From: Synechococcales cyanobacterium CNB
Lineage (GTDB): Bacteria; Planctomycetota; Phycisphaerae; Phycisphaerales; UBA1924
Assembly: GCA_030263455.1 (NCBI GenBank)
Contig: SZOZ01000001.1
Coordinates: 1-64,000, forward strand
Direction of reading: 5' to 3'
DNA length: 64,000 bases
This document shows, piece by piece, positions 7,290-10,242 of the stretch. The notes beneath the pieces are model-generated. The model made no database searches, had not been told where the DNA came from, and saw only the letters and a program-made list of their open reading frames with translations. The first letter of the stretch is position 1. Every line of letters starts with the position of its first letter. The position numbers and the translations under genes were made by a program.

Positions 7290-8558
7290 TCAGAGTTCGA
7301 CGGCGGCCCAGGCGCCGTTGGCGCGAGCAAGGGCGTGGACGCGGATGGTCGTGCCCACGAGGGCGCGTGCGGCGTGCGGCGTCGGCGTGAGGAGATGGAG
7401 GGGGGGGGCATCGGCTGCGCGAAGCGACGGCTCGGCCGCGCTGAGCAGCCTGGCGTGGGTCCGCGCCCACGCGGCGGCTGCGGTGAGGTCCGCGGCCGCG
7501 GTGGGGCAGGCGTCGGGCGTGTCGGCGCGGGCGAGCAGGTGCAGGCGGCCCGCGGCGTCCGCGGCGAGCTCGACGCGCTGCGTGACGGGACAGCGGGCCG
7601 AGAGCGGGCGGAGTTCGGGGAGGAGGGAGGCGAGCGCGTCGGTTGGCGCGGGCGTCGGGGGGGGCGGTGGGACTGAAGGGGAAGGAGAGCGAGGAGCCGT
7701 CACGGAGTGGCGGGGTTCGTGGCTCGGTGTATGGACGATCGCGAGCAGTGACTCGGGGGATTGGTCGGTCTGGCCGCGGTAGAGGCTGACCGTGTGGGCG
7801 GGGACCATGCGGGGGACGGGCTGCGCGAGTTCAGGGGGGAGGCCGAGGAAGGTCGTGGCGGCCTGGCGGATCTTGCGACCCGCGGCTGCGGCGGCGTCAG
7901 GGTTCGCGCCCAGGACGACCACGCGGAGTGCGGGCGGGTCGTCTGCCACGCCGACGATCGTCTCGGCGAGCGACTTGAGGGTGCGGTAGCACGCAGCGAC
8001 GGCGGCGTCGTCCGCGCCGGTCAGGAGCGTGAGCGTCGCGGGAGGGGCAGCCGCGAGCGATTCGGCGAGAGCGGGTTCGTTCGTTTCGTCAACTCGGATG
8101 AGCCATCGGCGTGCGATGGTCTTCGCGCGGTCGATCGCGTCGTTGAGGTTCGGGGATGGCACCCGCGGCGCATCGTCCGCGCCGACGATCTCAACGCTCA
8201 CCGTGCCGGAGTTGAGGCGGAGGAGGGCGACCGGTTCGTTGATCTCGGAGGCGCGGTGGCGGGCGTACTGCAGCACCCACGGAGAGGCAAGGACGGGCAG
8301 GTGGCCGAGGATCAGGGCTTCGACGTCGGGAGTGGGGGCATCGCTTCGTGAGGGGGGAGGAGATGCGGGGGGGGGAGAAGTGCGGGGCCTGCAAGATCCC
8401 GCCTCCTGGGGAGCGGGAAGCATGGGTTCCGGGGCGAGTTCGCCGTCGCCGAGGAAGAGGTCGGCGAGCGAGTCGCAGGCGTGATCGGTTGGGGTGGTGA
8501 TGAAGGGGATGGTGAGCGGGTCGAGCGAGGTTTCGTGTGATCCGTTGCGCGAGTCCAT
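7290..8558 (-). CDS. uncharacterised partner of the ParA-CBM48 protein
   Basis: A 422 aa protein with no family I can name with confidence. Residues 1-75 are low-complexity and Pro/Ser-rich; residues about 75-290 look folded; about 285-315 is a Pro-rich linker (SVPPPPPTPAPTD); and the C-terminal 110 residues form an Ala-rich domain. The segment LTLLTGADDAAVAACYRTLK followed by VVVLGANPDAAAAAGRKI and TTFLGLPPEL resembles the back half of MinD/FlhG-type ATPases, where a position-of-loading helix is followed by a strand ending in an Asn and a partner-modification region, but no P-loop is present. It starts 21 bp after the ParA-CBM48 stop, so the two are almost certainly co-transcribed and may work together. 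The MinD-like reading is inference only. Confidence 0.7.
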   Translation of the reverse strand: MDSRNGSHETSLDPLTIPFITTPTDHACDSLADLFLGDGELAPEPMLPAPQEAGSCRPRTSPPPASPPPSRSDAPTPDVEALILGHLPVLASPWVLQYARHRASEINEPVALLRLNSGTVSVEIVGADDAPRVPSPNLNDAIDRAKTIARRWLIRVDETNEPALAESLAAAPPATLTLLTGADDAAVAACYRTLKSLAETIVGVADDPPALRVVVLGANPDAAAAAGRKIRQAATTFLGLPPELAQPVPRMVPAHTVSLYRGQTDQSPESLLAIVHTPSHEPRHSVTAPRSPSPSVPPPPPTPAPTDALASLLPELRPLSARCPVTQRVELAADAAGRLHLLARADTPDACPTAAADLTAAAAWARTHARLLSAAEPSLRAADAPPLHLLTPTPHAARALVGTTIRVHALARANGAWAAVEL

Positions 8559-8579: not shown

Positions 8580-10082
8580 TCAGCGGACGGCGGCGGGATC
8601 GGTGTGCGGCACGGCCGCGGGGCGGACATCGACGACGCTGTTCGGCTCGCCGAAGGCGTTGAGTTCCCACTCGCTGTTGTACGGATCAGTGATCCAGTGG
8701 CTATCGACAACGAGGCGGTAGAGCCGGCGGCCGGGCTGGAGGGGGATGCACGCCTCGTACACGCCGATCTGCTCGTTGCGGCGGAGGTGGTGCTCGTCGG
8801 GGGACCAGCGGTTGAAGTCGCCGGCGACCGCGACGGAGCGTCCGAGCGTGATCGGCTGGATGAAGAGCACGCCGGCGGGCGTCTGGCGGGCGCCGTACAG
8901 GCGGCGGAGGGCCTTGTCGCCGGGCGGTGCGTTGTCGAGGTCGCGGATGAGGTGCTCGCTCAGACCTCTCTCAGAGGCCCACGCGGCGAGGGCGGCCCTG
9001 CGCTGGCGGGAATGGGTGCGTTGTGCCAGATCAGCGGCGCGGGAGGGCACGGCGGAGCGAGCCATCGGCGAGGACACGGACGCCGGGACGGTCTGCTCTC
9101 GAGGTCCGAGGCAGACACCGGGGCCGATGACGCGCTGCGCGAGAGCGGAGGCCGCGTCGGCGTCGAGCGTGGTGACGACGCTGGGCATGACGGTCGCGTG
9201 CTGAGGCGGGGGAGGGTGGGGTGAGTCGTCGGGTTCGAGCGTGGGATCGTCGGCTTCGGTGGCAAGGCGGATCGGGCGGGCCTCACCGCCGCGGACGCCG
9301 GGGATGCCAGCCTGGGCGATGAGCGTCTCGGCGAGGGCGCGGTAATCGGCCGCCCCGCGGGATTCGCCCGCGTACTCGATGACCGGCTGGCCGAACGAGG
9401 CGGCTTCCTTCAGGGCCGGGTCGCGGCGGATGGTGCACGGGAGCACGCGGTCGCCGTAGCGTCGGTGGAGTTCGGCGAGGAGATCGCGGGCGAGCGGTGC
9501 ATCGTCTTCGTGCAGTGTCGGGAGGAGCCAGGCGGGGATGCGCCGGCCGAGTCGGCGGCCGAGGGACTGGACGGTGCCGAGTTGCTTGGCCGCCCCTTGG
9601 AGGGAGAAGTAGCTCGTCTCGACGGGGATGAGGACGGCATCGGCGGCGGTGAGGGCGTTGAACGTCAGCAGGCCGATGGAGGGGGAGCAGTCGATGAGGC
9701 AGGCGTCGTAGTGCGGGGCGAGGCCGTCGAGCACCCAGGCGAGACGACGTTCCTTGTCGGCGCGGTCGGCAAGCCCGCCCCGCGGGGATTCGAGGCCCGC
9801 CAGACGCATCCGGCTGGGGATGAGGTCGAGGTTGCGATAGGGTCGCCAGATGAGGCGGGCCGGGTCCGTGCGGCGCGATGGCGCGGCGACGAGCGCGTCG
9901 GTGACGTCGAGATCGAAGCGGTGCTCGGGGACGGCGAGGCCGGCGGCACAGTGGGACTGCGGATCGACGTCGACGAGGAGCGTGCGGAGGTTGTGCGCCG
10001 AGGCGAGGACGGCCGCGAGGTTGATGGCGGTGGTCGTTTTGCCGCAGCCGCCCTTCTGATTGATGATCGCGATCGTCCGCAC
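8580..10082 (-). CDS. ParA-family ATPase with C-terminal glycogen-binding (CBM48/AMPK-type) domain
   Basis: A 500 aa fusion. Residues 1-260 are a ParA/Soj-type deviant Walker ATPase: KGGCGKTT P-loop at 10-17, LLVDVDPQSHCAAGLA (switch/Walker A'), CLIDCSPSIGLLTFNALTAA (Walker B region) and ADAVLIPVETSYFSLQG. About 260-390 is a linker with little recognisable structure. Residues about 395-490 carry VAVAGDFNRWSPDEHHLRR, PLQPGRRLYRLVVDSHWITD and FGEPNSVVDV, the typical sequence of the CBM48/AMPK-beta glycogen-binding fold. Start GTG 10082 was preferred over TTG 10136 because MRTIAIINQKGG is the usual ParA N-terminus. No parB neighbour is present, so plasmid or chromosome partition is not supported; positioning of glycogen or another polysaccharide body is a possible role, by inference. 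Confidence 0.88.
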   Translation of the reverse strand: MRTIAIINQKGGCGKTTTAINLAAVLASAHNLRTLLVDVDPQSHCAAGLAVPEHRFDLDVTDALVAAPSRRTDPARLIWRPYRNLDLIPSRMRLAGLESPRGGLADRADKERRLAWVLDGLAPHYDACLIDCSPSIGLLTFNALTAADAVLIPVETSYFSLQGAAKQLGTVQSLGRRLGRRIPAWLLPTLHEDDAPLARDLLAELHRRYGDRVLPCTIRRDPALKEAASFGQPVIEYAGESRGAADYRALAETLIAQAGIPGVRGGEARPIRLATEADDPTLEPDDSPHPPPPQHATVMPSVVTTLDADAASALAQRVIGPGVCLGPREQTVPASVSSPMARSAVPSRAADLAQRTHSRQRRAALAAWASERGLSEHLIRDLDNAPPGDKALRRLYGARQTPAGVLFIQPITLGRSVAVAGDFNRWSPDEHHLRRNEQIGVYEACIPLQPGRRLYRLVVDSHWITDPYNSEWELNAFGEPNSVVDVRPAAVPHTDPAAVR

Positions 10083-10131: not shown

Positions 10132-10242
10132 TACAAACCGGCAACGGCGACCGCGCGTGAGGTGCGCGGCGGTTGGAGTCTTCCGGGGGGTTATCGGGTC
10201 GGCCTGAAATTGCGCTTGAAGAAAGCGATCGCATCGGCGCAA

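Follow-up and report, generated by a model that had tools for sequence, protein, structure and literature searches.

ParA/MinD ATPases are reported, in the available passages of PMC10241942, to place plasmids, chromosomes, the divisome, microcompartments, flagella, chemotaxis clusters and conjugation machinery, and their partners are reported there to act via a positively charged, disordered N-terminus. In the McdA-McdB system for carboxysome positioning, a ParA-type ATPase is combined with a partner that is encoded by a neighbouring gene and lacks similarity to ParB, and the cargo belongs to carbon metabolism (PMC6328274, in the part available). Positioning on a glucan is achieved in a different way by the glycogen-binding domain of AMPK beta and by plant PTST, where the CBM48 of a non-enzyme protein places a partner on the polymer. 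The residues of AMPK beta that contact the glucan (W100, W133, K126 and L146) are named in the accessible part of PMC2642990 and those of PTST in that of PMC4339375; mutation of W100/W133 markedly reduced glycogen binding by the AMPK beta domain, and mutation of the same two Trp in PTST abolished starch binding.

In the window (i.e. the whole stretch of 64,000 nucleotides that was analysed), the frame at 8580-10082 had been predicted to encode a ParA ATPase fused to a CBM48/AMPK domain, and Pfam matches above the curated cut-offs were indeed obtained for both parts, with the intact P-loop KGGCGKTT and the C-terminal strings quoted in the original prediction all present in the frame. This fusion (ParA-CBM) is followed by a second gene, here called c1. 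The features of the pair are:

8580..10082, minus strand: ParA-CBM48 fusion gene, ORF of 500 aa, GTG start at 10082, stop at 8580-8582
9297..10082, minus strand: ParA/Soj ATPase domain, aa 1-262 (Pfam, Soj fold, invariant signature residues)
8898..9296, minus strand: linker, aa 263-395 (model, low confidence over most of its length)
8970..9041, minus strand: conserved linker helix, aa 348-371, SRAADLAxR type (model and loose pattern)
8619..8897, minus strand: AMPK1_CBM/CBM48 domain, aa 396-488, with Trp426 and Trp463 (Pfam, profile, alignment)
7290..8558, minus strand: partner gene c1 (422 aa), co-directional with ParA-CBM and starting 21 bp beyond its stop
8448..8486, minus strand: conserved N-terminal motif of c1, aa 25-37, DHACDSLADLFLG (alignment and model)
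7719..8333, minus strand: FlhG/MinD-like domain of c1, aa 76-280, in which GHLPVLASPW replaces Walker A
7296..7634, minus strand: c1 C-terminal domain, aa 309-421, modelled with confidence

A longer ParA-CBM frame is possible, with an alternative TTG start at 10136.

By sequence and predicted model, the first gene encodes a Soj-like ATPase with intact catalytic residues that carries a domain of the alpha-glucan-binding type on a long linker, and the second a degenerate FlhG/MinD-like protein without nucleotide-binding loop. The reading that we prefer, at a probability of roughly 0.45, is that the two genes form a ParA-type module for spatial organisation, in which the ATPase holds alpha-glucan and c1 is its regulator. 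We infer that glycogen is the cargo, and that ParA-CBM binds the nucleoid and hydrolyses ATP when triggered by the partner. The ATP-bound dimer would sit on the nucleoid, with its two CBMs on flexible arms holding alpha-glucan (glycogen) particles, until docking of the N-terminal helix of c1 at the dimer interface leads to ATP hydrolysis and release; the storage polymer would then be spread along the nucleoid and shared between the daughters, instead of being left at one pole. In E. coli, glycogen collects at the old pole and gives rise to asymmetric division (PMC12706056, in the part available), and it is because polar glycogen skews division there that even inheritance of the glucan via a nucleoid-tethered binder is proposed.

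The ATPase part has, by sequence and fold, its place in the ParA/MinD deviant-Walker-A family, showing both the xKGGxxK[T/S] signature and the catalytic Asp residues, with Lys10 (signature), Lys15 (P-loop), Thr16, Asp38 and Asp131 invariant in 52/52 orthologues. AAA_31 (PF13614) covers residues 1-178 (E 8.1e-41, above the curated cut-off). In the predicted model the confident parts are residues 1-260 and about 348-490, separated by a low-confidence linker (pLDDT about 37-57 over aa 261-350) that ends in the conserved helix, which a loose pattern finds in 44/52 orthologues. The best fold for the ATPase part is Soj/ParA (9a6n, Z 37.2, 1.6 A over 250 residues, 40% identity), as the original assignment of this half would have it; the match to 8ray reached Z 36.4, and lower scores were obtained for McdA (29.9), MinD (29.0) and BcsQ (27.8, 6yar). 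ParA-CBM thus has the ATPase fold and catalytic residues in common with Soj/ParA, from which it differs by the extra linker and CBM48 and by forming a clade apart from the ordinary ParA that these genomes also encode. Of the basic patch of Soj only a part is kept, residue 225 being Lys/Arg in 50/52 and residue 220 Arg in 12/52, two positions that we take to lie within the Soj DNA-binding region.

It could be argued that this ATPase is instead a BcsQ-like helper of an envelope machine for alpha-glucan or another polysaccharide, since PF06564 (CBP_BcsQ) matches 52/52 orthologues and BcsQ structures appear in the fold list. Soj/ParA is closer, however, the E-value of AAA_31 is far better, and no export or synthase gene was recognised adjoining the pair, all of which makes such a role very unlikely. 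Among the neighbours at 21 loci, which were clustered and named by eye (only the window's aroB was named by Pfam), no glycogen, flagellar, pilus, polysaccharide-export or synthase gene was recognised; aroB lies upstream of ParA-CBM in 10/21 loci, and a ClpX-like gene occurs in 8/21, being convergent downstream in 7 of these.

The gene lineage of ParA-CBM occurs in 59 of 61 genomes (that of the window and 60 relatives), the exceptions being two fragmented assemblies (G002 and G027, 89% and 81% complete) with matches only at the level of ordinary ParA. An assembly join or chance match was considered as an explanation and rejected on the strength of this distribution, and of AMPK1_CBM being matched individually, at E 0.001 or better, by 51/52 members of the orthologue alignment. 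The CBM is intact in 48 of the 59 genomes (47 read in the alignment, and G019 read separately) and lost or degenerate in 11: one or both key Trp are lost in five (G008, G037, G041, G050, G058), and the domain is absent from six (G017, G025, G034, G042, G048, G054). In an unrooted tree of 68 ParA domains, with members chosen from the available loci, the 12 ordinary ParA form one clade (support 100/100, branch 1.33), and L092, L100 and L188, which are the most distant of the fusions, lie on the side adjoining it. Seven ParA proteins without CBM are scattered among the fusions at several places in this tree, which points to repeated CBM losses. Some CBM-less ParA (L163, L068 and L070 were looked at) keep a linker helix of SRAxELAxR type near their end, so that an independent role of the helix is probable. 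The ParA of G041 is extremely diverged (branch 2.52); this genome (L040, L190/L191) has the degenerate CBM and no c1, and on another contig an ordinary-type ParA together with a 203-aa CBM ORF.

The fusion is carried by most genomes examined in one planctomycete order and by others elsewhere in the class. Outside the order, ParA plus CBM lies directly upstream of c1 in 20/20 loci, which had been fetched because of their c1 match; in one of them (L097) ParA is split over two frames, and in another (L099) c1 was detected only with a rebuilt profile model. Of the 91 loci confirmed in a wider search, 80 were listed, under titles that mostly name Phycisphaerales, Phycisphaerae, Phycisphaeraceae or Planctomycetota. 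In a set of 80 named c1 loci, many of which come from the same genomes as the other counts, the full fusion is present in 76, two run into contig ends and the remaining two carry ParA but no CBM. Other phyla were reached through that wider locus search and through plasmid records, where none of the best-scoring 5000 covers 80% of the query. In family f20, the fusion was found with intact CBM in 4/4 opened genomes, and the single opened locus of family f18 has only a 109-residue CBM ORF. In a sample of the phylum (392 genomes), three matches outside the class were opened (G386, G453, G373) and the remaining ones judged by frame length; of the three only G386 has the fusion, and in the class of G386 it was found in one of the three genomes available. 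As judged from these sequences, the fusion is real and old.

The C-terminal part was assigned to CBM48/AMPK1_CBM on the basis of its sequence, in line with the original prediction. AMPK1_CBM (PF16561) matches residues 414-488 (E 1e-7, 32.5 bits against a cut-off of 26.8), with an overlapping match to CBM_48 (E 1.1e-5, 26.1 bits against 22.4), and a PDB search with the C-terminal stretch of the orthologue profile leads to the CBMs of AMPK beta (2f15, E 3.0e-11; 1z0n, E 3.1e-11). In the alignment to AMPK beta, Trp426 and Trp463 of the window protein occupy the positions of AMPK beta1 W100 and W133. The W100 equivalent is Trp in 49/52 orthologues, the W133 equivalent in 47/52, and both stacking Trp occur together in the window protein and in 47/52 orthologues of the alignment, as well as in G019 (a contig-end locus, read outside the alignment). 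In a second CBM alignment, of 37 sequences that were picked for an intact domain and include 19 from beyond the order, neither Trp varies (37/37). The original prediction had proposed a check of Trp and Lys as residues typical of glycogen contact. The position of Lys126 is Arg in 51/52 orthologues and that of L146 is Phe/Tyr in 41/52, and both changes are, in terms of sequence, conservative. The two Trp are those of AMPK beta and PTST, with the difference that the CBM48 sits here on a bacterial ParA ATPase. Conservation of the contact residues is the strongest, though indirect, support for glucan binding by ParA-CBM.

The glycogen genes of the window's genome lie on another contig than ParA-CBM (G000 contig C4, L079:4459-10343) and encode a debranching enzyme, GlgB and a GT3 synthase (PF05693, E 8e-184), whereas neither GlgC nor GT5 was matched in this genome. 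Over the 61 genomes, GT3 occurs in 34, GlgB over its cut-off in 14, a GH57 match in 58 (51 at the stricter E < 1e-20) and a phosphorylase match in 50, and GlgC exceeds its cut-off in 0/61 (G046 comes near). GT5 is over the Pfam cut-off in 53/61 and nearly full length only in G046, short split GT5 matches being left out of the synthase count. CBM status (48 intact, 11 lost or degenerate) was independent of GT3, GlgB, GH57 and phosphorylase (p 0.31, 0.43, 0.67 and 0.67), with the presence sets compiled by hand from the search tables. Alpha-glucan routes of some kind are present in nearly all these genomes, some alpha-glucan gene occurring in 46/48 genomes with intact and 11/11 with lost CBM, and co-occurrence with glycogen genes neither supports nor excludes glycogen as the ligand. 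The original reading, in which the fusion localises or senses glycogen, is thus supported in part: its domain order, ATPase residues, contact residues and wide conservation are borne out, and glycogen is a putative ligand or cargo, to whose genes CBM presence showed no tie.

The same lack of correlation, together with an intact CBM in two genomes without any of the tested alpha-glucan families (G009, 88% complete, and G032, 93%), would be in keeping with a C-terminal Ig-like domain that has kept the CBM48 shape as a protein-protein module and binds no glucan. There is no clear reason, however, for an interaction module to keep exactly the stacking Trp pair (47/52) and an Arg at the Lys126 position (51/52), and we consider this improbable.

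Most relatives have a glycosyltransferase of some 490-530 aa whose GT5 match is weak and split (L081:1192-2667 and L082:1383-2972 were opened), and also a strong GH57 match. Neither of the two is strong in the genus of the window, which looks like a replacement of the alpha-glucan route in that genus.

The original prediction stated that no parB is nearby, which is correct in so far as the adjoining gene has no ParB match, but it missed the conserved, co-directional c1 at 21 bp downstream. By profile search, c1 adjoins ParA-CBM in 57/59 genomes, including that of the window, and the two are on the same strand in all 54 fetched loci in which both were detected. The two genomes without adjoining c1 are G041, with its extremely divergent ParA and degenerate CBM, and G048, where the CBM is lost. 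Absence of c1 in 0/48 genomes with intact CBM versus 2/11 with lost CBM gives p 0.03, with ancestry ignored, and this is offset by the four f20 genomes with intact CBM, in 4/4 of which c1 was undetected. In a sample of the class (298 genomes), c1 matches below E 1e-20 were found in 63/65 listed genomes of the order and in 19 of family f11; weaker matches bring the total to 164 genomes, some of them (in ORFs of about 290-350 aa) probably being true FlhG proteins.

The c1 of the window has no Pfam or NCBIfam match, and among 55 homologues only stray Pfam hits in single members were found, with a ParB-family match in 0/55. In its model (mean pLDDT 84.9), residues 76-280 form a MinD-like domain and residues 309-421 a second, C-terminal one. 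The best fold is that of FlhG (4rz3, Z 12.2, 3.7 A over 164), with FleN at Z 10.6, and the best profile match is likewise FlhG (E 8.6e-5). A Walker A is present in 0/55 at the loop position and in 0/74 aligned copies anywhere; among 102 whole c1 frames there is one match to the pattern (L101, GK[ST] in a Gly-rich stretch before the domain). From sequence and model, c1 has an FlhG-like fold and is not an active ATPase. It shares the fold and part of the profile with FlhG/FleN (MinD-like), and differs from these in its missing Walker A, in its other N-terminal motif and in a C-terminal domain that does not align to FlhG. For this last domain no fold match was seen in a whole-chain search, by which it was barely covered.

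With no ParB-family neighbour by Pfam, an FlhG-like fold in c1 and an ATPase in a separate clade, the pair is not a ParABS system; c1 is the best candidate for a functional equivalent of ParB. In having a ParA-type ATPase and a neighbour-gene partner without ParB similarity, it is like McdA-McdB, whereas McdB is (in the available part of PMC6328274) small and mainly helical and binds the cargo itself, and here the putative cargo-binding domain is on the ATPase, with a MinD-like protein as partner. From its FlhG/FleN fold (Z 12.2) and FlhG profile match, c1 could also be a pseudo-subunit that takes the place of a second ATPase in a heterodimer with ParA-CBM, in which case the pair would position flagella or pili as FlhG does. 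This has the lowest probability of the readings given here, as the real FlhG of the class is probably found among the weak c1 matches in ORFs of about 290-350 aa, and no flagellar or pilus gene was recognised nearby.

In nine of the 11 genomes in which the CBM or a key Trp is lost, c1 is kept, from which it follows that part of the function would be independent of glucan. For this reason, the most serious rival to the preferred module is a glucan or energy sensor, in which glucan bound by the CBM alters the ATPase as in AMPK beta, and c1 binds other cargo (chromosome, division or surface machinery). Survival of c1 would be expected if it holds the cargo, its folded C-terminal domain is free for another ligand, and in AMPK the CBM mediates inhibition by glycogen (PMC2642990, in the part available). 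The long low-confidence linker, however, fits tethering better than allostery, and beside the operon no other cargo gene was recognised by eye or clustering, so that a sensor seems rather unlikely, at odds of about one in four. Against the preferred module itself count, besides the retention of c1 where the CBM is lost, the independence of CBM status from the glycogen genes, the two genomes with an intact CBM and none of the tested alpha-glucan families, the lack of a recognised glycogen gene beside the operon, the f20 genomes with fusion but undetected c1, the many c1 of the order that have no Lys/Arg before their N-terminal motif, and the partly kept basic patch.

A glucan-binding member would, if true, add energy reserves to the cargo range of ParA/MinD ATPases, and would open a direct route to the question of whether glycogen is apportioned between dividing bacteria or the positioning machinery serves to gauge the reserve. 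The fusion and its usual partner gene suggest an unknown system that ties a stored sugar polymer to the chromosome, and a dead MinD-like protein would, if true, be a kind of ParA partner absent from the literature passages covered. Among the matches listed in a literature search with preprints outside its scope, no title or abstract start concerned a ParA-CBM48 fusion or a glycogen-placing ParA, and the earlier statement that no named family has this domain order agrees with the literature searched, where no description was found. In the available text of a genomic survey of the class (PMC11266412), a term search gave AMPK in 0 places and the protein ParA in none of the words shown, and glycogen is named only as a predicted substrate.

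Outside the order, the N-terminal motif of c1 reads KRGIESISHLFLS, SRGIESVVQFYLS, GRGISSIAHHFLS, KRSLSEISHLFLS and similar, and Lys/Arg stands just before this hydrophobic motif in 18/20 proteins (13/15 aligned plus five read directly, with L099 left out because its motif is unclear). Within the order, Lys/Arg occurs among the eight residues before the motif in 22/55 and is missing from them in 33/55, the copy of the window included. In sequence, and by analogy with known partners, the N-termini of the deeper-branching c1 resemble the ParA-activating peptide of partner proteins. Tentatively, the pair could be seen as a new ParA positioning class for storage polysaccharide, ancestral to most of the bacterial class, in which the ATPase would carry the cargo domain and a dead MinD/FlhG-type partner would act in the role of ParB, its older forms having a basic N-terminal peptide that activates the ATPase; this wider reading is held with less confidence than the module itself.

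In G386, from another class of the phylum (L188:2112-4300), ParA-CBM is followed by a 328-aa protein without Pfam match, which starts with MKRKKLGRGIEDFIG. This ParB-like LGRGI start is similar to LGRGL, with which we take ParB proteins to begin; in L031, LGRGLSSL is found in an apparent ParB, named by eye. Homology of the G386 neighbour to c1 was not significant in the comparison by hhalign (P 0.07, with 0.24 for an ordinary-ParA control), so that it is retained as a candidate; the G386 pair is possibly an older form of the ParA-CBM/c1 pair.

In the order, AMPK1_CBM is also commonly matched by short ORFs, of about 105-250 aa (e.g. G043:C58:41283-41519 and G044:C9:218312-218545). The C-terminal domain of c1 (7296-7634) has, in many relatives, a conserved RCPxAPxVELAxD..GxLHxL and an end in ...LN.
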